Position numbers and translations under genes: made by a program. Shown here one piece after another: positions 1 to 16,964 of a stretch of 64,000 nt of DNA. Within the stretch, counting starts at the first letter, position 1; each line of letters begins with the position of its first letter. Source of the DNA: Methylobacter sp. S3L5C (GTDB lineage Bacteria; Pseudomonadota; Gammaproteobacteria; Methylococcales; Methylomonadaceae); assembly GCF_022788635.1 (NCBI RefSeq), contig NZ_CP076024.1, positions 1,426,001 to 1,490,000 of the forward strand. The letters are read 5' to 3'. Below the pieces are notes generated by a model. The model had not been told where the DNA came from, did no database searches, and worked only from the letters and a program-made list of their open reading frames with translations.

Positions 1-1108
1 GCGTATCATTTGGTGTCTGGTAGTTAGGGTGGTGTTGGCGCCAGTTAATAAGTCCTGACCAGCCGGGTAATTCAAGTGCCAGTCTGCGCAAATAACCGTG
101 CCACTGTTTTGATGGTATTTCTAACTGAGTCAGTTGCAGGATAATGGTATCGACTGCATCCTCAGGTAATTCTGACATTATCTGTTGCCAGTCAGGCAGC
201 TCATGTAAAAAAGGGTTGGCATCATAAATGACGGTTGCCCGCCAGGCAGCATAAAGCCCTAAATGACACCGTTCAGGGGTTTGCCAGGATGCAACACCTT
301 CGTCCATCGCTGATGCACAGATGCGGATCAGTTGTGGATGCACGTCATCAAGGATATCTACTCCACTTAATGCAAGAATAAAACCGCGTAAAGTGATGCT
401 CTCGCCTATTTGGGATAATAATTCATCCAGTGGGGTAAAGTCGTTACGATGCAGCGTTTCCAAAGGTTTTTTTGCGCTCTGGTAGGCTATCAGCCATTCT
501 TCAGCGTGCTCCAGTGACAAATCAAGGAGTGCTTCCGGGTGCAAGGTGGCTTGTTGTAAATGAAGTTTGTTTAAAATACTTTCCCAAAGCGTTTTTATAA
601 TGCTGCCTTGATGGCCGTCATCGGTAAATAACCGACTACGAATTGGCGGCGGTACATCTATTTGTACCGTATTCAAAGCCCCTAATTCTTCTATCTGCCA
701 ATTTAACTGACTAACGGTAATGCCGGTTAAATCAAATAATAGCGCGATGCGGTAAATATCTTTTCTCGTGATGACACGATTTTTTAACGTGCAAACAATT
801 TGCTCGGTCTTTAAGTCAGGACTCTTTGCCAATGCGGTGGTCAAGTCACTGTCGTTAATACGTCCTTGCTGATAAAAAAGGCGACTTTGTGCTTCAGGAA
901 GGTAAGCGCTAATGCCGGTTAATGTTGTAAATGTTGCCAGTGCGTCTTCAAACGGTAAATGTTGAAAGCCATGTAAGGTATTGTGATGAACAAAATCAAT
1001 AATCGGTGCCTGTCCGGGCAGGACATGATCCAAATCATTCAGCGCGGCTATGATCTGTTCTCGAGAGTTGGCAGAGTTTAAAGATGATTCGTGCATGGTC
1101 AACGTCAT
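1..1108 (-). CDS. dabA: DabA-type inorganic carbon transporter subunit (DUF2309), C-terminus outside window
   Basis: The first ~369 codons are visible; the gene runs off the left edge. The N-terminus carries the HHNTLHGFQHLPFE segment and, near the edge, RRLALELPGWSGLINW, both typical of the DUF2309/DabA family, the beta-carbonic-anhydrase-like subunit of the DAB energy-coupled CO2/bicarbonate accumulation complex. The catalytic Cys/Asp/His region is expected further on and cannot be checked. The ATG at 1108 overlaps the TGA stop of the upstream NuoM-like gene (ATGA), implying translational coupling; an alternative ATG is at 1096. Neither start has a clear Shine-Dalgarno. The partner gene matches the known dabB-dabA arrangement, so a membrane-bound CO2-hydrating pump is the likely role; the family call is firm, the transport function is inferred. 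Confidence 0.8.
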   Translation of the reverse strand, partial: MTLTMHESSLNSANSREQIIAALNDLDHVLPGQAPIIDFVHHNTLHGFQHLPFEDALATFTTLTGISAYLPEAQSRLFYQQGRINDSDLTTALAKSPDLKTEQIVCTLKNRVITRKDIYRIALLFDLTGITVSQLNWQIEELGALNTVQIDVPPPIRSRLFTDDGHQGSIIKTLWESILNKLHLQQATLHPEALLDLSLEHAEEWLIAYQSAKKPLETLHRNDFTPLDELLSQIGESITLRGFILALSGVDILDDVHPQLIRICASAMDEGVASWQTPERCHLGLYAAWRATVIYDANPFLHELPDWQQIMSELPEDAVDTIILQLTQLEIPSKQWHGYLRRLALELPGWSGLINWRQHHPNYQTPNDT

Positions 1109-5663: not shown

Positions 5664-6985
5664 TGATAACGGCATTGGCAAGCCGTTATACGGCAGAATA
5701 TCCAGCAATAGCGCCGGTATTGTGCGGGCAATCCTTGTCGTGGTTGCAGCAATTACGCGCCCAAGCCTTAAGCCAGTTTTCTGTACAAGGCTTTCCTTCT
5801 CCAAGAGAAGAAGAGTGGCGTTACACTAATGTGTCAGCAATCGAGAAAAAGTTGTTTTCGCCGGCAACAAGCATAGCGACAAGTGCTATTGATAAAGATT
5901 GGCTTAAATCACATCAATCAACAGATGCGTGGTCGGTCGTGTTGATTGATGGACATTTTTCAGACGAGTATTCGGTTTTAGACGGTTTGCCTGAAGCGGT
6001 TTCTGTTCTGAGTATGAGCGACGCTTTGGAAAAACAGCCGGAAACACTGGAAAAATATATTAATCAGGCAGTTAATAACGATAAGCACGGTTTTATCGCT
6101 TTTAACACCGCCTGGTTTAGCGATGGATTATTCATTCATATTGATGCCAAACAGGTGCTGGAAAAGCCGGTGCAAATCTTGCATCTGGCTACTCGCGCTG
6201 ATGTTTTGACTGTCACGCGCACGGTTATCGTGGCTGAGCAAATGGCAGAAGCCAGTATTATAGAAACCTTTGTCGGTTTGGATAATGCCTATTTATCGGC
6301 TGCTGTCACTGAAGTTTTTGTCGGTGCAAATGCTGATGTAACATTATATAAGCTGCAATGTGAGTCTGAAAAAGCCTATCACTTTGGCGGGACTTACGTT
6401 AAACAAGCCAGAGATGCGCGCTTTACCCATCATAATTTTGCTTTTGGCGGTTTGTTGGCGCGTTGCGATATTCATGTCGATTTGGATCATGCTTCCGAGT
6501 GTGAATTAAACGGTTTGTATTTAGGTGTCAAACGTCAACATATCGACAACCATACCCGCATTAATCATTTAAAGCCGCACGGCGTCAGTCGCGAACTTTA
6601 CAAAGGTGTACTGGATGATAGAGCCAGAGGTGTTTTTCAGGGGCGGGTGATTGTGGCTGAAGATGCGCAAAAAACTGATTCACAAATGAATAATCGCAAT
6701 CTGCTATTATCAAACGATGCCGAAGCCGATACCAAGCCACAGTTGGAAATTTATGCCGATGATGTTAAATGTGGGCATGGTGTTACTGTCGGGCAACTGG
6801 ATGAAAAGTCGATATTCTATTTGCAATCACGTTGCGTTGATGAAGAAACGGCGCGTAACATGCTGACGTTTGCTTTTGCCAACGAAATGGTCGATAAGAT
6901 TAAAATTAAAGATTTACATGATAAAGTGTTGGAGCAAGTGTTGGTCCGTTTCCCGCAGGAAGGCGTTAATAAGGAGTGGTTATGA
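5663..6985 (+). CDS. sufD: SufD, Fe-S cluster scaffold subunit
   Basis: 440 residues, homologous in fold to SufB (right-handed beta-helix core). Diagnostic segments are EEEWRYTNVSAIEKK near the N-terminus, FQGRVIVAEDAQKTDSQMNN, and CGHGVTVGQLDEKSIFYLQSR near the C-terminus, which contains the conserved Cys-Gly-His of SufD. It overlaps sufC by one base and sufS by four (ATGA). It forms the SufBC2D scaffold with its neighbours. Confidence 0.95.
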   Translation: MITALASRYTAEYPAIAPVLCGQSLSWLQQLRAQALSQFSVQGFPSPREEEWRYTNVSAIEKKLFSPATSIATSAIDKDWLKSHQSTDAWSVVLIDGHFSDEYSVLDGLPEAVSVLSMSDALEKQPETLEKYINQAVNNDKHGFIAFNTAWFSDGLFIHIDAKQVLEKPVQILHLATRADVLTVTRTVIVAEQMAEASIIETFVGLDNAYLSAAVTEVFVGANADVTLYKLQCESEKAYHFGGTYVKQARDARFTHHNFAFGGLLARCDIHVDLDHASECELNGLYLGVKRQHIDNHTRINHLKPHGVSRELYKGVLDDRARGVFQGRVIVAEDAQKTDSQMNNRNLLLSNDAEADTKPQLEIYADDVKCGHGVTVGQLDEKSIFYLQSRCVDEETARNMLTFAFANEMVDKIKIKDLHDKVLEQVLVRFPQEGVNKEWL

Positions 6986-8205
6986 CCGTGTTTGATGTAC
7001 AGAAAATACGCCAGGATTTCCCTATTCTTAAGGAGAAAATTCGTGGCAAGGATCTTGTTTATTTGGATAATGCGGCTACCTGTCAAAAACCACAAGCCGT
7101 TATTGACAGCATCGTGCATTTGTACAGCCATGATTATGCCAACGTGCATCGTGGCGTACATACGTTAAGTGTTCGCTCTACCGATAAATTTGAAGGCGCA
7201 CGTACCAAAGTTAAAGACTTTATTAATGCGGCCAGCGAAAAAGAAATTATTTTTGTTAAAGGCGCTACCGATGCCATTAATCTGGTTGCGCAAACTTACG
7301 GTAAAGCCAACGTAAAGCCCGGTGATGAAATTATCATCACCGCGATGGAGCATCATTCCAATATTGTGCCCTGGCAAATGCTCTGTGAGCAAACCGGTGC
7401 AGTATTGAAGGTTGCGCCCATAAACTTGCAGGGTGAATTGATATTTGAAGCGTTTGAAAAACTGATCAATGATAAAACCAAGCTGGTTTCCGTGGTCCAC
7501 ATGTCTAATGCGTTGGGCACGATTAATCCTGTTAAGCAAATTATCGCTGTAGCGCATGAAAAAAGTATACCTGTTTTACTTGATGGTGCGCAGGCGATTC
7601 CTCACATGCCAGTCGATGTGCAGGATCTGGATTGCGACTTTTATGTTTTTTCCGGACATAAGCTTTATGCCCCGACAGGTGTTGGTGTGCTTTACGGCAA
7701 ACAAGCGCTGTTGGAAGCTATGCCACCTTATCAAGGCGGTGGTGACATGATTCGCAAAGTCACTTTTGAAGAAACCGAATACAATGTATTGCCGTATAAA
7801 TTTGAAGCCGGTACGCCGAATATTGCCGATGTTGTCGGTTTGGGCGCAGCTATTGATTACCTAAATGCTATCGGTATGGATAAGATTGCAGCTTACGAGG
7901 CTGAGTTACTGGTTTATGCGACCGAAAAGGCGCAGCAAATTAAAGGCCTGCGAATTATTGGTGAAGCTGGCCATAAAGGTGCTATCTTGTCTTTTGTTCT
8001 GGATAAAATACACCCACACGATATTGGCACCATGCTTGATAGTTTAGGAATAGCCATCAGGGCGGGTCATCATTGTGCCATGCCGGTAATGGATTTTTTT
8101 CAGGTGCCTGCGACAGCAAGAGCCTCATTTGCCATGTATAATACTAAGCAAGAAATTGATGTGTTAATGAAGGGTATAGAATCTTTAATAGAGGTATTTG
8201 GCTAA
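6982..8205 (+). CDS. sufS: SufS cysteine desulfurase
   Basis: 407 residues from the ATG at 6982, chosen over an in-frame GTG at 6976 because AAGGAG (6970-6975) is correctly spaced and the ATG overlaps the sufD stop. The PLP lysine is in FSGHKLYAPTG and the catalytic cysteine in RAGHHCAMPVM, the group II (SufS) arrangement. It removes sulfur from L-cysteine and passes persulfide to the downstream SufU-type protein. Confidence 0.96.
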   Translation: MTVFDVQKIRQDFPILKEKIRGKDLVYLDNAATCQKPQAVIDSIVHLYSHDYANVHRGVHTLSVRSTDKFEGARTKVKDFINAASEKEIIFVKGATDAINLVAQTYGKANVKPGDEIIITAMEHHSNIVPWQMLCEQTGAVLKVAPINLQGELIFEAFEKLINDKTKLVSVVHMSNALGTINPVKQIIAVAHEKSIPVLLDGAQAIPHMPVDVQDLDCDFYVFSGHKLYAPTGVGVLYGKQALLEAMPPYQGGGDMIRKVTFEETEYNVLPYKFEAGTPNIADVVGLGAAIDYLNAIGMDKIAAYEAELLVYATEKAQQIKGLRIIGEAGHKGAILSFVLDKIHPHDIGTMLDSLGIAIRAGHHCAMPVMDFFQVPATARASFAMYNTKQEIDVLMKGIESLIEVFG

Positions 8206-8657
8206 TGTTTGATGATTTACGTGACCTTTATCAAGAGGTTATTTTTGACCATAATCGTAACCCACGAAATTTTCGTATCATTGAAAATGCCGATAGAAAA
8301 GTCGAAGGATTTAATCCGCTGTGCGGTGATCGCCTGACTTTATATTTGCAAATGGATGGCGACGTGATTACCGACGCCAGTTTTCAGGGTTCAGGTTGTG
8401 CTATTTCTACCGCATCTGTTTCGTTAATGACTGAAGTTGTTAAGGGAAAAACCGGGCAGGAAGCTGAAGCGTTATTTAAAAAGTTTCACGAAATGACGAC
8501 AGGTAAAGATGAAAATTTTAATCTTGAAGCCATAGGTAAGTTGGCAGTACTAGCTGGTGTGCGTGAATATCCGGCACGGGTTAAATGTGCGACACTGGCT
8601 TGGCATACCCTTGACGCTGCATTGAAAAATGAACAACAAGCCATTTCTACAGAATAA
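8205..8657 (+). CDS. sufU: SufU-type (NifU-like) sulfur acceptor/scaffold
   Basis: 150 residues of the IscU/SufU family, with three cysteines in NPLCGDRL, FQGSGCAIS and RVKCATLAWHTL. The ~20-residue stretch between the second and third cysteine regions is longer than in IscU, as in SufU. It starts on the last base of the sufS stop (TAATG). Family role: accept persulfide from SufS (a zinc-dependent transfer in SufU). No sufE or sufA is visible in the operon, which fits SufU doing the transfer. Confidence 0.9.
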   Translation: MFDDLRDLYQEVIFDHNRNPRNFRIIENADRKVEGFNPLCGDRLTLYLQMDGDVITDASFQGSGCAISTASVSLMTEVVKGKTGQEAEALFKKFHEMTTGKDENFNLEAIGKLAVLAGVREYPARVKCATLAWHTLDAALKNEQQAISTE

Positions 8658-8677
8658 GTATTATCACTAATAATTCA

Positions 8678-9445
8678 GTGCAAAAATACACCGGAAAACT
8701 GGCCGTACTCTATCAGGGGCAGGGCGATAGCCTGCCGTTTCAAGAGCTTGCACAAAGGCTAGGTGTTCCTTTATATCAATCCATTAATAATGACAGTCCG
8801 GAGAGTTTCTTTTTAACCTGGCGCGATGGTTGTTTAAAGCTACTGGATAAAGAACTACTTAAAAAAGGCGGACTGGTTGTCGATATAGAGCCGCGCAATG
8901 GTGAGCAGCGATCATGGCCAGCGCCCAAAGATGGTGCTTTGGCACATGCGCTCGGGCGAAAAACGAGAACGGTTGTTGATGCAACGACAGGATGGGGGCA
9001 AGATAGCTTACATATCTTTCGTATGGGCTATGAGGTGCTTTGCATGGAGCGTTCGCCTGTGATGGTCGAGTTGCTGCTTGATGGTTTTAAACGCCTGGCT
9101 GACTTGGAGTGGATGCAGAGTCTTAATCTTCAGTCGCCACGATTACTCATCGGTAATGCCATAGATCTGTTGGCAACTTTAGAATCTCAGCCAGACTGTA
9201 TTTATCTTGATCCGATGTTCCCGCCCAAGCGTAAAAAGTCCGCTCTGCCCAAGAAAGCAATGATGGTTTTACGTGATTTGTTGGGGGATGATCAAGATAA
9301 AGAGCAGCTTTTTGCGTCCGCTTTAATGGCTGCCGGAAAGCGGGTGGTAGTAAAAAGTCCGGATTACGCAGAGCCTTTAGGTGGTAAGCCTAATGAAAGT
9401 TTTCATGGGAAATTATTACGTTATGATGTTTATTTTAAAAGCTAA
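8678..9445 (+). CDS. rsmJ: RsmJ, 16S rRNA (guanine-1516-N2)-methyltransferase
   Basis: 255 residues from a GTG start; no ATG is available. The SAM-binding region VVDATTGWGQDSLHI and the catalytic-site segment YLDPMFPPKRKKSALPKK are characteristic of RsmJ. It sits 20 bases after the sufU-type gene and 17 before a Rieske gene, so it is probably carried on the suf transcript although its function in ribosome modification is unrelated. Confidence 0.88.
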   Translation: MQKYTGKLAVLYQGQGDSLPFQELAQRLGVPLYQSINNDSPESFFLTWRDGCLKLLDKELLKKGGLVVDIEPRNGEQRSWPAPKDGALAHALGRKTRTVVDATTGWGQDSLHIFRMGYEVLCMERSPVMVELLLDGFKRLADLEWMQSLNLQSPRLLIGNAIDLLATLESQPDCIYLDPMFPPKRKKSALPKKAMMVLRDLLGDDQDKEQLFASALMAAGKRVVVKSPDYAEPLGGKPNESFHGKLLRYDVYFKS

Positions 9446-9462
9446 AGATTCGGGAATAAAGA

Positions 9463-9783
9463 ATGTCTGATTGGGTAGATGTGATAGATCAAAATGCACT
9501 CGCAGATGGCGAAAATATGGTTGTTGATGTTGATGGAACTGATGTGGCGGTCTTTAAAATAAAGGGTGCTTTTTATGCCATTGAAGATGTTTGTTCACAT
9601 GACGGTGCGGAAATTGCCAGTGGACAACTGGACGGCGATGAGATTGTCTGTCCTCGGCATGGTGCGCGCTTTTGCGTTAAAACGGGTGAAGTTAAATCGC
9701 CTCCCGCTTATGAAAACATCACCTGTTTTCCGGTACAAATTAAAAACGACAGAGTTCAGGTCAGAGATAACCGCTGGGACTAA
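9463..9783 (+). CDS. Rieske-type [2Fe-2S] ferredoxin
   Basis: 106 residues. Both Rieske ligand pairs are present: C44-S-H46 in DVCSHDG and C63-PR-H66 in IVCPRHG. It matches the small non-haem-oxygenase ferredoxin group and has no signal peptide or membrane anchor, so it is cytoplasmic. It is the last gene of the suf operon; such Rieske genes recur at suf operon ends. It may be an electron donor for cluster assembly or a client, which cannot be decided here. Confidence 0.88.
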   Translation: MSDWVDVIDQNALADGENMVVDVDGTDVAVFKIKGAFYAIEDVCSHDGAEIASGQLDGDEIVCPRHGARFCVKTGEVKSPPAYENITCFPVQIKNDRVQVRDNRWD

Positions 9784-9808
9784 TGATTTTACAGTCAAAT
9801 TCAATTTA

Positions 9809-9855
9809 GAAGCCTGTCTTTTTATAGGTAACTTGCCTATAAAAAGACAGGCTTC
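9809..9855. terminator. Long perfect hairpin after the suf operon
   Basis: A perfect 20-bp stem (9809-9828 with 9836-9855) closed by a 7-base loop lies 26 bases after the Rieske stop. The outer stem begins GAAGCCTGTC and its complement ends GACAGGCTTC. No T-run follows, so it may work as an RNA-stabilising or processing end as well as a bidirectional terminator. Confidence 0.7.
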
Positions 9856-10111
9856 CCCCGCTTAATGTATAGTTTTTACTCGTATTGTGTAGTTCAAAAA
9901 GAATCCCCCCATTTACAAAAATCAAAAAAAACAGGTGTTTCAGGTTAAAGTGACAGGGTTTGTAAAATTAGTAAGATCGGTATATAGATTTAACTGCTAT
10001 ACCAATTTTACTTAATAGGCTGTTGTTATCGGGGAATGAACAATTCCTGACAATGCAGGATTGTTCATTTAGCCGGAATTTAATCAATTGTTGAATACTG
10101 CTGGGTATTTA
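9856..10111. other. Intergenic stretch between convergent genes
   Basis: No gene is seen. Besides the suf hairpin, a second hairpin occupies 10035-10069 (AATGAACAATTCCTG paired with CAGGATTGTTCATT, one bulge), placed to terminate the minus-strand gene that ends at 10112. Confidence 0.6.
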
Positions 10112-10531
10112 TCAGTCAGTCACGCCTGACACACCAATAATTGACCAGTTGTCAAAATCAAGAGCACCTTCTTCATTGTCACCGTTATTATAAGTGATGC
10201 GACAAGCATATTTTTTGCTGTTGTTACTCACTGTAACATCAGCGCTAATAAGATACTGATAATTTCCAAGAGTCCAGGCGTTTAAAGGTTTTTCAGGAAA
10301 GATAATGTTCGCATCAGGCCCAAGTTCGGATTTAATGTAATTATTGCAATGCATAAAAGCAATGCCGGACAGTGGGGTTGAAATTGCTATTTGACTGGCT
10401 TGATCCTTACTGTCCACCAGAAACAAATCTGATGCAACAATTTCGTATATAAATGGCATAACAATTTTATATTGACTGAAAAAAAGAACAGCTAATCCTG
10501 CTACAAGAAATAATATTCGGTATTTTTTCAT
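10112..10531 (-). CDS. Hypothetical protein with one N-terminal membrane anchor
   Basis: 139 residues from the ATG at 10531; a TTG nine bases upstream is a weaker start. Residues 5-22 (ILFLVAGLAVLFFSQY) form one hydrophobic helix, signal anchor or uncleaved signal, followed by a soluble domain with two cysteines (MHCNNYIK and KYACRITYNNGD) that could form a disulfide outside the cytoplasm. I do not recognise the family. It lies between the suf and pmo operons on the opposite strand and ends near a hairpin. Confidence 0.6.
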   Translation of the reverse strand: MKKYRILFLVAGLAVLFFSQYKIVMPFIYEIVASDLFLVDSKDQASQIAISTPLSGIAFMHCNNYIKSELGPDANIIFPEKPLNAWTLGNYQYLISADVTVSNNSKKYACRITYNNGDNEEGALDFDNWSIIGVSGVTD

Positions 10532-10666
10532 AAAATTCAAGTATTTAATTAAGGTTAATTAATGATATGTTGTGGGTGATTTTAACAGAACCAAGCTATT
10601 TAAGTGCAGTAAATTTAATGCGGATGCGAATAATTACAGAAAAATTAAATTGAGAATGTTTTTGAC

Positions 10667-10694
10667 TTGACAAGGTTACTTGAGCTGGTAGACT
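10667..10694 (+). promoter_or_regulatory. Sigma-70 promoter of the pmoCAB operon
   Basis: TTGACA at 10667-10672 and TAGACT at 10689-10694 are separated by 16 bases. Transcription from here would give a leader of about 120 bases before pmoC. The pmo operons of type I methanotrophs are known to use sigma-70 promoters. Confidence 0.65.
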
Positions 10695-10720
10695 GACTGC
10701 TCACTAAATTGACTTGGTGG

Positions 10721-10752
10721 CATTCCCTCTTAATTCGTTTAAGTAAGGAATG
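10721..10752 (+). promoter_or_regulatory. Stem-loop in the pmoC leader
   Basis: CATTCC (10721-10726) pairs with GGAATG (10747-10752), enclosing a second stem CTTAA/TTAAG around a TTCG-containing loop. It sits in the 5' untranslated leader and may protect the very abundant pmo mRNA or take part in regulation. Confidence 0.5.
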
Positions 10753-10821
10753 GGAAAATGGAGTTATACTATAGAGCCCTGGTCAAGAGACTTGGGATTT
10801 GTTAATTTTTAGGAGGTAGAA

Positions 10822-11574
10822 ATGGCAGCTACAACTGAATCAGTTAAAACTGATGCTGCGGAAGCACCGCTGTTAAACAAAAGAAATATGTTCCTAGGCG
10901 CTGCGCTCTATGTCGTATTTTATGGTTGGGTTCGTTGGTACGAAGGTGTCTATGGCTGGTCAGCCGGTCTTGACTCATTTGCACCTGAATTCGAAACATA
11001 CTGGATGAACTTCCTGTATATCGAATTTGTGTTGGAAGTAATCACTGCAGGCCTGTTATGGGGCTACCTGTGGAAATCTCGTGATCGTAAAGTGATGTCA
11101 ATCACTCCAAGAGAAGAGTTAAGAAGACATTTCACACATTGGACTTGGTTAGTAATGTACGGTATCGCTATTTATTACGGCGCTAGCTACTTTACAGAGC
11201 AAGATGGTACATGGCATCAAACTATTGTTCGTGATACTGACTTTACACCAAGTCACATCATTGAATTCTACTTGAGCTATCCTATCTACATCATCACTGG
11301 TGGTGCTTCTTTCTTATATGCTAAAACTAGATTGCCAACCTACCATAAAGGCTTGTCACTTATGTATTTAGTAACAGTAGTTGGTCCTTTCATGATCTTG
11401 CCAAATGTTGGCTTGAACGAATGGGGTCACACTTTCTGGTTTATGGAAGAATTGTTTGTTGCACCTTTACACTACGGTTTCGTATTCTTCGGATGGGCTG
11501 CTTTAGGTGTAATGGGTATTGTAAACATAGAAATTGGAGCTATCTCCAAGCTTCTGAAAAAAGACTTAGCTTAA
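10822..11574 (+). CDS. pmoC: PmoC, particulate methane monooxygenase subunit C
   Basis: 250 residues, an integral membrane subunit of about six helices. RDTDFTPSHIIEFYLSYP near residue 140 holds the conserved Asp/His cluster used for metal binding in PmoC, and the C-terminal NVGLNEWGHTFWFMEELF is a family hallmark. It is preceded by a perfect AGGAGG ribosome site. First gene of pmoCAB, the enzyme that oxidises methane to methanol in intracytoplasmic membranes. It could only be confused with amoC of ammonia oxidisers, which the fhc genes and the PmoA sequence exclude. Confidence 0.98.
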   Translation: MAATTESVKTDAAEAPLLNKRNMFLGAALYVVFYGWVRWYEGVYGWSAGLDSFAPEFETYWMNFLYIEFVLEVITAGLLWGYLWKSRDRKVMSITPREELRRHFTHWTWLVMYGIAIYYGASYFTEQDGTWHQTIVRDTDFTPSHIIEFYLSYPIYIITGGASFLYAKTRLPTYHKGLSLMYLVTVVGPFMILPNVGLNEWGHTFWFMEELFVAPLHYGFVFFGWAALGVMGIVNIEIGAISKLLKKDLA

Positions 11575-11600
11575 ATCAAGTCTAGGTTGTAATGTAAATA

Positions 11601-11657
11601 ACTATCTCCTCGCTGTTTCGTTATTTTTCACAACGAAACAGCAAAATGGAAGATAGT
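11601..11657 (+). promoter_or_regulatory. Hairpin between pmoC and pmoA
   Basis: An 11-bp perfect stem (GCTGTTTCGTT 11612-11622 with its complement 11632-11642) is flanked by the additional pair ACTATCT/AGATAGT. There is no T-run, so it is more likely an mRNA processing or stability element setting pmoC relative to pmoAB than a terminator. Confidence 0.6.
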
Positions 11658-11696
11658 CTTAATAAAAATAATTTAAATCCTTTAGGAGGTAAGCTT

Positions 11697-12440
11697 ATGA
11701 GCGCATCTCAATCAGCTGTACGTTCTCGCGCCGAAGCAGTAAAAGCTTCTCGCACGTTCGATTGGCTAATTTTGTTTACATTGTTCTTCGTTGTACTTGG
11801 TGGTTATCACATTCACTATATGCTAACCGGTGGTGACTGGGATTTCTGGACTGACTGGAAAGATAGACGTCTATGGGTAACCGTAGCTCCAATCGTTTCA
11901 ATTACATTCCCGGCTGCTGTTCAATCTATGCTTTGGTATCGTTACCGTTTACCTTTCGGTGCGGTAGTTTGTATTTTAGGTCTGCTCTTAGGTGAGTGGG
12001 TCAACAGATATTTAAACTTCTGGGGTTGGACTTATTTCCCAGTAAACTTCTGTTTCCCATCAAACTTAATGCCAGGTGCTATCGTTCTTGACGTTGTATT
12101 GATGTTGACAGGTAGTATGACAGCAACTGCAGTTATTGGTGGTTTGGCTTGGGGTCTTTTGTTCTACCCAGGTAACTGGCCAATCATAGCTCCATTACAT
12201 GTTCCTGTTGAATATAACGGCATGATGATGACACTAGCTGATTTACAAGGTTACCATTACGTAAGAACTGGTACACCTGAGTACATCAGAATGGTTGAAA
12301 AAGGTACACTAAGAACATTCGGTAAAGACGTAGCTCCAGTATCAGCGTTCTTCTCTGGTTTCGTTAGTATCTTAATTTACTTCTTGTGGCACTTCTTCGG
12401 CAAATGGTTCAATTCGACTTCATTCGTAGAGTCTGTATAA
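11697..12440 (+). CDS. pmoA: PmoA, particulate methane monooxygenase subunit A
   Basis: 247 residues from the ATG at 11697, the standard PmoA length and N-terminus (MSASQSAVRSRAEAVK); AGGAGG lies just upstream, so the longer frame from 11646 is rejected. Diagnostic sequences GGDWDFWTDWKDRRLWV (the usual pmoA forward-primer region) and VSAFFSGFVSILIYFLWH are present. Seven or so membrane helices. It is the standard phylogenetic marker for methanotrophs and the sequence reads as a Methylococcales type. Confidence 0.98.
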   Translation: MSASQSAVRSRAEAVKASRTFDWLILFTLFFVVLGGYHIHYMLTGGDWDFWTDWKDRRLWVTVAPIVSITFPAAVQSMLWYRYRLPFGAVVCILGLLLGEWVNRYLNFWGWTYFPVNFCFPSNLMPGAIVLDVVLMLTGSMTATAVIGGLAWGLLFYPGNWPIIAPLHVPVEYNGMMMTLADLQGYHYVRTGTPEYIRMVEKGTLRTFGKDVAPVSAFFSGFVSILIYFLWHFFGKWFNSTSFVESV

Positions 12441-12545
12441 GAACTGTTACAACGAAAATAAAAAAAGACTGGCGGCAGCTAAATAATTGTTATGTTGCCG
12501 TTAGATACTCACAAACTATAGATTCTCTATTATAGAGGAGGATAT

Positions 12546-13790
12546 ATGAAAATATTAAAAGACAAGGTTGCTAAGTTATCCTTTGTCGCACTGCTGATTA
12601 CTGTTACAGCAGCGATGTTTTACGTACCAACTGCATCTGCTCATGGTGAAAAATCTCAAGCCGCATTTATGCGTATGCGGACTATTCACTGGTTTGACCT
12701 TAACTGGTCAAAAGAAGAAGTAGCTGTTAATGATACAATGACAATTTCAGGTAAATTCTTTGTATTTACTGGATGGCCTGAAACTGTTGATAAACCAGAA
12801 ATCTCTTTCTTGAACATTGGTATTCCTGGACCTGTATTTATTCGTGCAGGATCTTGGATCGGTGGTCAATTAGTTCCACGTTCAGTTTCTTTGGAACTGG
12901 GTGAGACTTATGAGTTTAAAGTATTATTAAAAGCACGTCGTCCAGGTGACTGGCACGTTCACACTATGTTGAACGTTAAAGGCGGTGGTCCAATTATCGG
13001 TCCAGGTAAATGGGTAACTATTACTGGTTCTATGGCCTCTTTTGTAAACCCAGTTACTACTTTGACAGGCGAAACTGTTGATTTGGAAACTTATAACTTG
13101 GGTAATACTTACTTCTGGCATGGTTTGTGGTACGCTATTGGTCTAGTTTGGATGGCATACTGGATTCGTAAACCATTGTTTGTTCCACGTTCAATCGCTG
13201 TTGAAGCTGGTAAAGCTGATTCATTGATTAGTGGCGCTGACAGAAAAGTTGCGATGGGTTTTGCTGCTGGTACTATCATAATTGTTGCTATGTCTATGGC
13301 TAGCACCAATGAGAAGTTCCCAATCACAACTCCTTTGCAAGCTGGTTTGTTACGTGGTATTAAATCAATTGATATGCCTGCTACAACTGTAAAGGTTAAG
13401 ATTGAAGATGCTACTTACCGTGTACCAGGTCGTGCAATGCAAATGACCATGACTATCACTAACAATGGTGACTCATCTATTCGTTTAGGTGAATTTAACA
13501 CTGCTGGTGTACGTTTCATGGATGCTGATGTATCTGTTGATGAATCAGGTTATCCTGATGACTTGTTGGCTGAAGAAGGTTTGACTGTTAGTGATAACAG
13601 CCCAATCGCTCCAGGTCAATCAAGAACAGTTCAAGTTACTGCTTCTGATGCTGCATGGGAAGTTTATCGTTTAGCTGACTTGATCTATGATCCAGACAGC
13701 CGTTTTGCTGGTTTGTTATTCTTCTATGATGAAGCTGGCAACCGTCAAATGATAACAATTGACGCTCCATTAATTCCATCTTTCATCTAA
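12546..13790 (+). CDS. pmoB: PmoB, copper-binding subunit of particulate methane monooxygenase
   Basis: 414 residues. A signal peptide ends at ASA, so the mature protein begins with His33, followed by H48 (RTIHWF) and H137/H139 (GDWHVHTM); these match the copper ligands His33, His137, His139 and the nearby His48 of the Methylococcus enzyme. Two periplasmic cupredoxin domains flank two membrane helices near residues 185-260. Last gene of pmoCAB, 105 bases after pmoA, with AGAGGAGG as ribosome site. Confidence 0.98.
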   Translation: MKILKDKVAKLSFVALLITVTAAMFYVPTASAHGEKSQAAFMRMRTIHWFDLNWSKEEVAVNDTMTISGKFFVFTGWPETVDKPEISFLNIGIPGPVFIRAGSWIGGQLVPRSVSLELGETYEFKVLLKARRPGDWHVHTMLNVKGGGPIIGPGKWVTITGSMASFVNPVTTLTGETVDLETYNLGNTYFWHGLWYAIGLVWMAYWIRKPLFVPRSIAVEAGKADSLISGADRKVAMGFAAGTIIIVAMSMASTNEKFPITTPLQAGLLRGIKSIDMPATTVKVKIEDATYRVPGRAMQMTMTITNNGDSSIRLGEFNTAGVRFMDADVSVDESGYPDDLLAEEGLTVSDNSPIAPGQSRTVQVTASDAAWEVYRLADLIYDPDSRFAGLLFFYDEAGNRQMITIDAPLIPSFI

Positions 13791-13798
13791 TGAAATAA

Positions 13799-13824
13799 TT
13801 AACTGACACTTCGGTGTTAGTTAA
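13799..13824 (+). terminator. First hairpin after pmoB
   Basis: Stem TTAACTGACAC / GTGTTAGTTAA around a TTCG tetraloop, starting nine bases after the pmoB stop. Without a T-run it probably protects the 3' end rather than terminates alone. Confidence 0.65.
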
Positions 13825-13831
13825 GGAATTG

Positions 13832-13870
13832 AAAACCCCGTTGCTTATTTAGGTAACGGGGTTTTTTTTT
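13832..13870 (+). terminator. Rho-independent terminator of pmoCAB
   Basis: AAAACCCCGTT pairs with AACGGGGTTTT, followed by an unbroken run of nine T residues. A textbook terminator that separates pmoCAB from the small-protein genes beyond it. Confidence 0.9.
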
Positions 13871-14585
13871 AAAAGTTTTTGAAGATCAGTTTCTTGTTAT
13901 GGCTCAATCTTTTTTAAAAAAATGCACTAGAAATGTTGGCTATAGTTTCTGGGATAAATAAATTCGATGTGAACAGATGCCGTTTATTTGAAGAAGTAAG
14001 GGTTAGGATGACTTACCTGCGTTATATTATGCACGTCTCTTGTTTAAATAAAATTTGCATAACTTGATGCAAATACAAGATTTTAAAAGTTTGGCAAAAC
14101 CTTGCCTGTAAATCCGGCTAGTATAAGGCATCATTTTCTGTTCTCAAAAGTAATCAGCTTTAGGTGCAATTGGTTTATAATTGATATTGTAAAATGTAAG
14201 TGTCGTAGATATTTTATAAATCACAGTGCCATAAATGCCTTGGTAATTGTCAATTTTACGATTGTAACTTAATGATTAATAATGAACGGCAGTAGTATTG
14301 GCTGTTAATAATTTAATTAGTTATTATCCAATACAAATATGTGCTTTAAATAGGATATGTCTGTCGTTTGTTTCCATGTTCTTAAGTTAAATATTAAGAA
14401 AAGTTATTAGAGCTCTTAATTTCATATGATTTAATTTTTATCATTTATCTCTAATATATTTTTCTGTGCTAAAATCCCATATAGTACTTTGTTAATTAAT
14501 TTGACTGCTTATGTATAGCTATAAGCCTCATTTTAATTTACTGGTTCTAAAATAATTTTAATATCAATCTTGAGGTTAATAAGTA
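13871..14585. other. AT-rich non-coding stretch between pmoB and the first small exported protein gene
   Basis: About 715 bases with no credible gene in six frames. It is strongly AT-rich and presumably contains the promoter and leader for the 14586 gene; I could not settle on a convincing -35/-10 pair. Confidence 0.5.
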
Positions 14586-14969
14586 ATGCAAGTATTAAAA
14601 AAAGTTCTAATTTCTCTTGTTATGACAGCAGCTATGGTTGCAGTTTCAACATCAGCTTTTGCTGCACCTAAAGGCGAAGAAGCAGTTAAAGAAGCTATTG
14701 AAAGTACGCTTTCAGGCATCGCTGCTGCACAAGCTGAAATAAAAGCGGGTGACTTGCCTGCAGCTTCAAAAACTATTCTTGAAGCTGCTCAAGCTTCAAA
14801 AGAATTTCGTTTTGAAATTACTGAACGTCAACGTCAAAAAGCGACTGATCAATTGAAATCAGCTCGTAAATCAGTTGATGCAGGCGATGCAGCTGCTGCA
14901 GAAGCAGGACTAGCTACAGCTTTAAAGTCATTTTCAGAAATGAAAGCTAAATACGACGAAACACATTAA
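14586..14969 (+). CDS. Small exported helical protein, pmo-linked family member 1
   Basis: 127 residues. A clear signal peptide (LISLVMTAAMVAVSTSAFA, cleaved after AFA) precedes a ~100-residue, Ala/Lys/Glu-rich, wholly helical domain, so it is periplasmic. The second half (SKEF...LKSARKSV.AGDAAAAEAGL..ALKSF) is a pattern shared with the next two small genes, showing they are paralogues. No cysteine or histidine cluster is seen except the terminal His. I do not recognise a named family; a resemblance to helical metal- or stress-binding periplasmic proteins such as SmbP is only in style. Confidence 0.8.
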   Translation: MQVLKKVLISLVMTAAMVAVSTSAFAAPKGEEAVKEAIESTLSGIAAAQAEIKAGDLPAASKTILEAAQASKEFRFEITERQRQKATDQLKSARKSVDAGDAAAAEAGLATALKSFSEMKAKYDETH

Positions 14970-14994
14970 TAAATATATTCTGTAAAAGCAGATT

Positions 14995-15018
14995 CAATTA
15001 TCGCTTATGGCGTGATTG
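14995..15018 (+). terminator. Possible hairpin after small protein gene 1
   Basis: CAATTATCGC pairs imperfectly (G-T pairs) with GGCGTGATTG around a TTAT loop, 26 bases after the stop. Weak evidence. Confidence 0.35.
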
Positions 15019-15183
15019 GATTTGTTTGAAGGTATTTATAAATATAAAAAATTTCTTCACCAGTTTTTAACTATCTTAAAGATTAAATACTTACTGAATG
15101 TGATAGAATTGCAAGTGGCAAAAACTATAATGTTATGTTGCCGATATAATTAGAAATAACAACAACTTGAGGGCTAGTTGAAT

Positions 15184-15570
15184 ATGAAAACATTGAAAAA
15201 AATCTTATTGTCTTTATGCATTGCAGCTTCTATGGGCGCAGTTTCAACTTCGGCTTTAGCCGAAACTGACGCCGGTAGAGTTACTTACAAGCCTGCTGAA
15301 GCAATTGATATGGTAGTCGCTAAAATACAGCTCGCCATAGAAGGTATCAGTAAAGGTGCAAGTAATGATGAAGCTGCAGCTCTTATCAAGCCAGCGATTG
15401 ATTTAAGCAAAGAAATCAATGCTAATGATAAAGTAGATAATGCACGCTCAAAAGCTAATAGAAAATTAAAATCAGCTATGACACATGTTAAAGAATCTTC
15501 TTTACAAGAAGCTGAGCAAGAATTAAAAGATGCAAAAAAAGATTTTGAAGCACTGAAAAGCTTGATCTAA
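15184..15570 (+). CDS. Small exported helical protein, pmo-linked family member 2
   Basis: 128 residues from the ATG at 15184 (GAGGGC upstream); a TTG six bases earlier is less likely. Signal peptide ends SALA|ETDAG. The mature protein is predicted all-helical and shares SKEINANDKVDNARSKAN, LKSAM..VKE and EAEQELKDAKKDFEALKSLI with family member 3. A TATAAT at about 15127 is a possible -10. It has its own terminator hairpin, so it is likely a single-gene transcript. Function unknown; periplasmic. Confidence 0.8.
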   Translation: MKTLKKILLSLCIAASMGAVSTSALAETDAGRVTYKPAEAIDMVVAKIQLAIEGISKGASNDEAAALIKPAIDLSKEINANDKVDNARSKANRKLKSAMTHVKESSLQEAEQELKDAKKDFEALKSLI

Positions 15571-15580
15571 ATGCTATACG

Positions 15581-15616
15581 ACCCTATCTGGTTGCCTTTT
15601 GGTTTCCTGATAGGGT
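15581..15616 (+). terminator. Terminator after small protein gene 2
   Basis: ACCCTATC (15581-15588) pairs with GATAGGGT (15609-15616) and is followed by TGGTTGATTTTT, a partial T-run. Confidence 0.6.
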
Positions 15617-16418
15617 TGGTTGATTTTTCTGAGCTAACATTATTTACATCCTTCTTAAAAGACTATTTTCTTATATTATGCATGAGCATTTTACCTTTTC
15701 TAAGGTCATCACGATAAGAGCGAAAGTGTAATTTTTCATAATCAGATTTAATATTTTCTAAATGACCATATTTTTACAGGTGTTTAAATAAGTTCTAAGA
15801 ATCATATTTATACCTTCTAATAAAACCGGACTTAAACCGATTTTATCCAGTCTCGGATAAACCGCTCGCTAAATAATCATATCTTCATCCTCAGTTTTTG
15901 GATGTATATTTGTGGCATCCAGGCCAAATTTTTTTCTTTTGGGCAGTCTTATTCTATTTGTATTAAGCTATCCGTAATGCTTTCTGTCAATTGCCTGGTA
16001 ATACAATAAGCCTTTAAACTGTACTCATCTATGCTTAACTCATTATTATAAAACCTGTTTTTTCGAAAAGTGTAAATCAAGCGGATGAATAATGCCAAAA
16101 AATTTAGACTACAGATTATGGTTTCTTCATATTTATTTGTCCAAAAAAGAATGCTTGTAATCACTTTTTGCGTAGATCAATTTTTATGAGATACCGTTAT
16201 GATTGTTGTTAAGCCTATACGTTTATTAATAAAATCAGTTGCTTGTCAGATTTAACCTGCACCCGTAATCCACAACTGTCAGATATTATTTAATATTGAC
16301 AAGAGTTATGATAAAGTTCTAGCGGTTTTGTAACTAATTAAATATGTTTTCTATTCTCGGACAGTCTCCTAGTAGTTGCAGACCTAATAAAAATAACTAA
16401 TAACGAGGTTTACATTAT
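15617..16418. other. AT-rich stretch of about 800 bases without a supported gene
   Basis: Only a 71-codon minus-strand frame (15949-16164) is open, with no ribosome site and AT-driven composition; I do not call it. The last ~100 bases presumably hold the promoter of the 16419 gene. Confidence 0.5.
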
Positions 16419-16910
16419 ATGAAATTATTAAAAAGCGCTGTCGTAGCTACTACATTGGCTCTATCTTTAGGATCTTTTTCGGCTGCTGCTGATGTCTGTT
16501 TGGGTATGGCCTGTATGTATAATAAAATGACTGCAGCTGAAGGGATAGACGCCACTTTAGTCCAAGTCAATGAAGCTATGAAAGCCATCAACGACAAAGC
16601 AGAGGACGATGTCATTATAGCGAATATCAAAGAGGCATTAGCGGTAAGTAAAGAAATCAATGCTAACGATAAAGTTGACCGAAATCGTAACCGTGCCAAT
16701 GATTCCTTGAAAAAAGCGCGAGCAGCGGTAAAAGAAGGCGACTTGGCTAAAGCAACAGGCTTTTTAAAAGAAGGTGAGAAACGTTTTTCAGATCTTAAAG
16801 GTATGATCGATTTAACGCAAGCCGATAGAGCGTCACAACAGACGCATATGCTAAACCGCATTTTGGACACTAACGATAGCGCAGCTGGCGCAAAATCTGG
16901 CGGAAAATAA
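16419..16910 (+). CDS. Small exported helical protein, pmo-linked family member 3
   Basis: 163 residues. Signal peptide with cleavage near SAAA|DV; the mature N-terminus carries a cysteine pair (VCLGMACM) absent from members 1 and 2. The central block SKEINANDKVDRNRNRAN followed by LKKARAAVKEGDLAKATGFLKEGEKRF matches member 2 almost motif for motif. A ~35-residue Gly/Ser/Ala-rich tail (ending SAAGAKSGGK) is unique. AACGAGG precedes the start. Likely a periplasmic helical-bundle protein; the Cys pair could bind metal or form a disulfide. The long antisense frame opposite is a shadow. Confidence 0.8.
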   Translation: MKLLKSAVVATTLALSLGSFSAAADVCLGMACMYNKMTAAEGIDATLVQVNEAMKAINDKAEDDVIIANIKEALAVSKEINANDKVDRNRNRANDSLKKARAAVKEGDLAKATGFLKEGEKRFSDLKGMIDLTQADRASQQTHMLNRILDTNDSAAGAKSGGK

Positions 16911-16920
16911 AAATAAGCGC

Positions 16921-16964
16921 ATGAAAATGGTGGGTAGAAAAGTATGCCCACTTTACATTTTCAT
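16921..16964 (+). terminator. Hairpin after small protein gene 3
   Basis: ATGAAAATG (16921-16929) pairs with CATTTTCAT (16956-16964), with an inner GTGGG/CCCAC stem. It begins eleven bases after the stop codon. Confidence 0.6.

Follow-up and report, generated by a model that had tools for sequence, protein, structure and literature searches.

An exported four-helix-bundle protein family with three members encoded downstream of pmoCAB in Methylobacter sp. S3L5C

The genes of the particulate methane monooxygenase (pMMO), pmoC (10822 to 11574), pmoA (11646 to 12440), and pmoB (12546 to 13790), lie on the forward strand (10822 to 13790 in all) of the stretch of Methylobacter sp. S3L5C DNA analyzed here (NZ_CP076024.1, positions 1,426,001 to 1,490,000; the 64,000 nucleotides are referred to as the window, and coordinates are those of the window). 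This pmoB is the sole PmoB gene detected in the genome. Downstream of pmoCAB and on the same strand are three small genes, named X1, X2, and X3, which a first-pass annotation of the window, made from its sequence alone, had described as a family of exported helical proteins with no nameable function. X1 (14586 to 14969) encodes a predicted exported four-helix protein of 127 amino acids with a nearly invariant KEFR.E.TER.RQKA motif and a C-terminal EMK..YD..H. X2 (15184 to 15570), the core member of the family, encodes a similar protein of 128 amino acids (130 if translation begins at an in-frame TTG at 15178) in which D.GR..Y.P and SKEINANDKVD.AR are nearly invariant. X3 (16419 to 16910) encodes 163 amino acids, with C[LM]GMACMYNxMT at the mature N terminus and a conserved C-terminal tail; the cysteine pair and the long tail noticed at first reading were thus borne out. 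By inspection, each protein begins with a signal-peptide-like N terminus (Lys, a hydrophobic core, and A-x-A) that is followed by the helical domain.

The three proteins proved to be real relatives that align end to end, with pairwise identities of 36% (X1 and X2), 29% (X1 and X3), and 39% (X2 and X3). SKE is common to all three, and INANDKVD is limited to X2 and X3, as had been reported; X1 carries SKEFRFEITERQRQKA at that position. A single profile recovered X1 to X3 together with two further members in the same genome: X4, near contig position 1,331,545 and about 110 kb upstream, and X5, near 141,558 to 141,923, about 1.3 Mb away and unlinked. Because the alignment spans the full length and one profile matches all three proteins and two more, the resemblance is not due to chance.

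X1, X2, and X3 look like separate transcription units rather than an extension of the pmo operon. A terminator-like hairpin lies on the forward strand behind each of X1 (14986 to 15030; z = −6.6), X2 (15579 to 15618; z = −4.7), and X3 (16921 to 16964; z = −3.8), a strong terminator-like structure stands behind pmoB, and X1 has its own conserved −10 element. The structure behind pmoB consists of two hairpins with a T run behind the second (13799 to 13866, forward strand; z = −6.35), so pmoCAB is predicted to end before X1. In these scores, which compare folding with that of 200 shuffled sequences, none of the 200 folded as well as the native sequence for any of the three X genes, in agreement with the earlier mention of a hairpin after each gene. 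The hairpin behind X1 was missed by a pattern scan for terminators, which found 4, compared with 2.3 in shuffles; a scan for sigma-70-type promoter patterns gave no excess (14 versus 14.5).

The putative extended −10 element of X1 (TGCTAAAAT, 14467 to 14475, forward strand) is present in 43 of 44 X1 genes, and that of X2 (TGATAGAAT, 15101 to 15109, forward strand) is present in 68 of 78 X2 genes, at about −86; the ten X2 genes without the pattern include that of M. buryatense. Directly after the −10 element of X2, the predicted 5′ end of the transcript forms a stem-loop (15116 to 15143, forward strand). The mean z score of the X2 leaders was −2.55, versus −0.42 in control stretches, and 74% of the leaders fell below −1.5, versus 14% of the controls. 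The base of the stem covaries: in an alignment of 34 of the 68 leaders that carry the promoter pattern, pairs with both sides changed occupied 35 cells, compared with 15.6 in shuffles (0 of 500 shuffles reached 35), and neither any of the 500 shuffles nor any slid version reached the covariation score. Pairing is kept in 96 of 98 cells of the three basal pairs but in only 62% of cells over the whole stem. Further pair types were no more numerous than expected by chance (26 versus 23.3, matched by 85 of 500 shuffles), and RNAalifold retained just the three basal pairs, indicating that the leaders do not share a single upper-stem structure. For X1, a search for a leader hairpin found none (mean z score of −0.10, versus −0.23 in controls).

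On present sequence comparisons the family is undescribed. No Pfam or NCBIfam model reached its cutoff for X1, X2, or X3, all three falling far below every threshold, and the 80 members that make up the family profile (the best 80 of 156 X2 relatives among named genomes, at 49 to 91% identity) yielded no more than scattered weak matches when scanned singly. A sequence search of solved structures with X2 alone returned no match, and the alignment returned weak helical matches (SmbP, E = 2.6). In the literature, as far as it was available in the texts and excerpts searched, no named or studied version of the family was recognized.

The family is nearly universal in the order. Members were present in 260 of 301 Methylococcales genomes, including all 227 genomes of the window's family (f1, which we infer to be Methylomonadaceae; 227 is the 260 less the 33 matching genomes from elsewhere, a division taken from the sort order of the table), so that every sampled genome of a methanotroph family carries it. 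Outside f1, 33 of the 74 genomes of the order matched, more weakly. In a sample of 369 genomes from the class, two matched at an E value of ≤1e−6, both from f1; the two further genomes of the order and all 365 genomes from outside the order had no family match at that threshold. Named records with relatives include Methylobacter, Methylovulum, Methylotuvimicrobium, Methylomonas, and Crenothrix; in genome G008, probably that of M. buryatense 5G, just two members were detected. The first-pass annotation was right as far as the family is concerned.

X1 and X2 form a pair retained across genera: an X1 gene (at least 38% identity) lies on the same strand as X2 in 43 of the 80 X2 loci, typically about 600 bases upstream. 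X3 is an ortholog group apart from X1 and X2, judging from full-length matches at 52% identity or more, which occurred, among the matches listed, in 42 of 151 f1 genomes (the window's included). C[LM]GMACMYNxMT, KEINANDK, and the conserved tail are common to all 20 aligned X3 orthologs, and at 19 other X3 loci, flanks of up to 1.5 kb showed neither pmo genes nor X1 or X2 as genes of their own, the X1 and X2 matches there appearing to fall on X3 itself. The earlier description of the three genes as tandem paralogs thus holds in that three relatives sit side by side and fails insofar as it implies a recent local expansion. These results show that X1, X2, and X3 belong to one family of exported, SmbP-like four-helix bundles, that they diverged from one another long ago, and that the family is part of the core gene content of what we take to be Methylomonadaceae.

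AlphaFold gave a confident four-helix bundle for the family, with SmbP as the closest fold. The SmbP ligand set is made up mainly of many His residues. SmbP (PF16785) shares the small antiparallel bundle with the X family at 17 to 18% identity, but its His-rich ligands are absent from the X proteins: across 192 distinct domains, the mean content was 0.71 His (maximum, 3), 1.47 Met, and 0.21 Cys, with no Cys in 172 domains, two in 19, and three in one. Mature X1 and X2 contain no Cys and about one His apiece, and SmbP-style metal binding by these two proteins is unlikely because the ligands are missing. Scores against PF16785 were well below its cutoff of 29 bits (X3, 17.0, the best, with an E value of 0.0066; X1, 11.8; X2, not listed), and 6 of the 80 members matched at an E value of ≤0.1 (best, 0.0041). 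X3 is the only group with an evident soft-ligand motif (Cys, Met, Cys, and Met near the mature N terminus), in a segment that the model places at a predicted local distance difference test score under 50. X3 may bind copper through this C[LM]GMACM start, and it alone among the members is a plausible direct copper binder. An EF-hand-like site for calcium or lanthanide in NANDKVD was considered and rejected, the spacing of the acidic residues being unfit as judged by eye.

The copper storage proteins Csp1 and Csp3 are four-helix bundles known from methanotrophs, according to an excerpt of the literature on them (PMC5171941). The Csp core is lined with many Cys residues; in contrast, the mature parts of 45 X1 and 80 X2 proteins have none, and X3 has two, at the N terminus. 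PmoD/AmoD proteins are described, in the excerpted source, as periplasmic proteins of methane and ammonia oxidizers whose genes often lie beside pmo or amo, PmoD being a cupredoxin with a CuA site and a Cx7MxHxnC-type motif (PMC6189053). The X proteins are likewise predicted to be periplasmic, but their model is all helical and they are without Cx7MxHxnC-type ligands. For cytochrome b562 (PF07361; cutoff, 30 bits), X1 scored 17.1, and X2 and X3 were not listed. The b562 heme-ligand position is a Met in helix 1, where X1 has no Met. YfdX (PF10938) is helical like the X family and matched 11 of the 80 members weakly (best E value, 0.00023) over a region of about 40 residues; the sole bit score seen was 13 for X1, versus a cutoff of 26.6. 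The CpxP model gave an E value of 0.068 for X1 (13.1 versus 160 bits), with X2 and X3 not listed, and no Spy model turned up in the NCBIfam scan of X1 to X3, in which LTxxQ motifs were not searched for. In rank, PsbQ did not stand out from unrelated four-helix bundles such as b562 variants, and likeness to its fold is therefore of little significance.

Very high expression is predicted for X1, X2, and X5. Codon usage was compared among 277 genes of the genome itself (open frames of at least 100 amino acids from the window and 14 further stretches, amounting to about 7% of the genome, together with the X genes). With ribosomal-region genes as the reference, X1 ranked 1st, X5 2nd, and X2 7th; X1 and X5 thus exceed every sampled ribosomal-region gene in ribosomal-type codon usage, and the strongest such bias of all falls on an exported protein of unassigned function. 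With pmoCAB as the reference, the ranks were 2nd for X1, 5th for X5, 8th for X2, 38th for X3, and 40th for X4. Simulations that kept the amino acids and drew background codons gave z scores of 7.0 for X1 and 4.0 for X2 against the ribosomal reference. Among relatives (loci of at least 12 kb, with weights from the window's pmoCAB), 33 of 34 X1-like genes and 53 of 58 X2-like genes were top ranked, whether or not pmo was nearby. Together with the conserved promoter and leader hairpin of X2, the codon bias of X1, X5, and X2 is the basis for predicting that they rank with the most abundant periplasmic proteins. An excerpt of a transcriptome study of Methylomonas sp. DH-1 places four hypothetical proteins among the ten most expressed genes (PMC6373157). 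Should those four belong to the family, methane-oxidizing cells would have a major periplasmic component that has gone unstudied so far.

The idea that adjacency to pmoCAB marks out the system was not supported; adjacency is a genus-level feature and not a family rule. Among 30 pmoB loci fetched from the window's genus, 27 had at least 788 bases downstream (one of these being a divergent pmo-like locus), and an X gene lay within 1.5 kb downstream in 9 of the 27, on the same strand in six (including the window) and convergent in three. In two further genomes, G231 and G302, the X pair lies about 9 kb from pmoB. Outside the genus, where linkage was read for genomes listed in both the family and the PmoB matches, the cases listed were G088, with a distance of about 8 kb, and G278, with one of about 12 kb. 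What follows pmoB in the genus varies, being X1-X2, an X2-X1 cluster, or sucCD-like, lon-like, or TonB receptor genes. In a tree of 47 X2-like proteins, those of the genomes with convergent or more distant X genes (G100, G127, G231, G233, and G302) group with those of loci L037 and L066 in a supported clade (99/97) that excludes the window and the genomes with same-strand X genes, with the bootstrap of the tree not settled. The arrangement of family genes beside pmoCAB has thus arisen at least twice. Neither co-transcription nor general adjacency, which would mark a dedicated pMMO operon protein, was indicated by the sequences, given the terminator after pmoB, the X1 promoter, and the few adjacent loci.

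A second recurrent context is that of copper-type genes. In the convergent genomes and at L066, X1-X2 follow an FGE-type gene (PF03781) and adjoin a BNR-repeat gene, a CopC gene (PF04234), a lipoprotein gene, and a gene for an HupE/UreJ_2 membrane protein (PF13795); the assignments come from Pfam for L117 and for the FGE-type genes of L116 and L121, and from similarity for the other genes of the cluster. L037 has part of the FGE/CopC gene set, and L063 and L121, which are one contig, have an FGE-type gene and two X2 genes. The cluster itself, from FGE-type through HupE/UreJ_2, is conserved in L116 to L119, L066, and L198, and in two genomes of the window's genus (G233 and G302) it sits between pmoCAB and sucCD-like genes. 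A second cluster type (L054 and L073, the latter at 5738 to 13082) runs in one direction as HupE, HupE, X, X, two small membrane proteins, CopC, lipoprotein, and TonB receptor. Homologs of the first of these small membrane proteins occur in 37 of 237 genomes of the family, and 6 of 30 loci with it carry X genes upstream within a 1.5-kb flank. Across 36 near-complete genomes, 13 of 64 CopC genes had a family member within 3 kb, versus 0.34 expected (64 of 65 matches were used, one below the cutoff being left out). Genus g5 differs from the second cluster type in having the X gene on the opposite side, and an HupE-like gene (32 to 40% identity to a Pfam-matched one) stands directly upstream on the same strand in 9 of 9 loci fetched from eight genomes, the loci having been chosen for a member within 8 kb of CopC. 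The copper link is thus recurrent across genera and not universal. The metal handling suggested in the first-pass annotation is partly supported, by the company of CopC, HupE/UreJ, and TonB receptor genes in several genera, with SmbP-style binding by X1 and X2 being unlikely.

We tentatively favor, with a probability of roughly 0.38, the reading that the X proteins are abundant periplasmic accessory proteins of copper and pMMO envelope biology that act by protein contacts, with X3 as a specialized member. In these bacteria, the periplasm and the lumen of the membranes that carry pMMO form one continuous space. The X proteins would act there through protein-protein contacts made by the conserved end of the bundle at helices 2 and 3, and these contacts would support copper supply to, or the stability of, envelope machinery such as pMMO and the CopC/HupE-UreJ/TonB-receptor systems, next to whose genes some X genes lie. 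Copper supply or pMMO support is pointed to by the repeated company of CopC, HupE/UreJ, TonB receptors, and pmoCAB, and simple chelation is argued against for X1 and X2 by their lack of ligands. X1 and X2 would accordingly differ from SmbP in not chelating metal, and X3 would be a specialized version whose C[LM]GMACM start might accommodate a disulfide bond or bind Cu(I). As products of a widespread family with predicted very high expression, X1 to X3 merit experiments on a helper role in copper-dependent methane oxidation.

Several observations weigh against the accessory-protein reading. Both the copper and the pmo contexts are lineage specific: pmo genes lie beside X1-X2 in 4 of the 80 closest named loci (L014, L018, L021, and L023; sequence upstream of X2 reached 3 kb or more in 64 of the 80, and among these four in L021 only, where the genes ahead of X1-X2 are probably its pmo genes). 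In the same 80 loci, a short-chain-dehydrogenase-like gene is nearby in 46 and MoxR/BatA-like operon genes are nearby in 28 to 29 (both named by eye). At L010, inferred to belong to genome G166, X1-X2 come directly after a nirD-like gene, with 243 bases between, and pmoCAB lies elsewhere beside sucCD-like genes. All 13 CopC-proximal cases fall in 11 genomes of g5 and, coming from one genus, are not independent; in the other 11 genera (one of them without a CopC match), no CopC gene had a member within 15 kb. PmoB was present in 253 of the same 301 genomes, and among the matches listed the genomes of f4/g32 and f7 have PmoB without a family member. Since pmoB occurs in f4/g32 without a detectable member, pMMO does not need the X family in general. 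Conversely, some f1 genomes (e.g., G120 and G130) have members with PmoB not found, which may reflect assembly loss. X3 and X4, ranking 92nd and 144th of 277 by the ribosomal-region reference, have no strong codon bias. Codon usage is itself a prediction of expression rather than a measurement, and the function, interactions, and periplasmic location of the X proteins are likewise predicted.

The main rival, which we consider possible and rate next, is a general envelope housekeeping protein, such as an abundant holdase or spacer with a Spy/CpxP-like role and no special tie to methane or copper, for which the pmo and copper neighborhoods would be coincidence or hitchhiking at rearrangement hot spots. 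It would suit a family that is universal in f1 whatever its neighbors, a site behind pmoB that varies within the genus, the separation of X1-X2 from pmoCAB at L010, and the majority of the 80 closest X2 loci, which have no pmo or copper-type genes nearby (with less than 3 kb of upstream sequence in 16). However, CopC proximity is far above chance within g5, the separate cluster types in other genera and the two X2 lineages beside pmoCAB are hard to explain by coincidence alone, and the CpxP match of X1 is far below its cutoff.

A periplasmic metal chelator or storage protein of the SmbP type is unlikely. The fold, the weak PF16785 matches, the copper-gene neighborhoods, and the N terminus of X3 agree with such a role, but the domains have few ligands, the soft-ligand motif is confined to the X3 group, X1 and X2 are nearly without candidate residues, and even the best PF16785 score is 12 bits short of the cutoff. 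Least likely is an extrinsic lumenal subunit, in which X1 and X2 would attach to the periplasmic domain of PmoB within the lumen of the intracytoplasmic membranes much as PsbQ serves photosystem II in the thylakoid lumen, given that the fold is uninformative, that f4/g32 has pMMO without the family, and that close pmo adjacency is seen in one genus only. In an extended form that we regard as a long shot, X1 and X2 would be a so far unrecognized extrinsic lumenal component of methane-oxidizing membranes in Methylomonadaceae, present in amounts similar to those of pMMO and bound to the PmoB domain or to copper-supply partners, and X3 would be a copper carrier. Were this true, purified pMMO would lose X1 and X2, which could help explain its lower activity. 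Isolated pMMO is less active than whole cells, suggesting missing components, as stated in an excerpt of the PmoD literature (PMC6189053). The X family offers a short testable list for such components, in a compartment that would be lost on purification.

A better pmo-linked candidate than X1 to X3 is encoded on the other side of the operon. Divergent from and upstream of pmoC, on the reverse strand (10112 to 10540), is a gene for an exported or membrane protein of 142 amino acids with no Pfam match. Homologs are present in 206 of 237 genomes of the family, with two copies in four genomes among the matches listed, and among the 18 fetched loci that extend far enough upstream, 16 have the gene beside pmoC. 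At L119 (genome G231), pmoB (about 14066 to 15307 of that locus) is split by an in-frame stop that an assembly error may explain. The sole Rfam match in the window at its gathering score is a 6S RNA (RF00013; 42792 to 42971, reverse strand; 76.5 bits).
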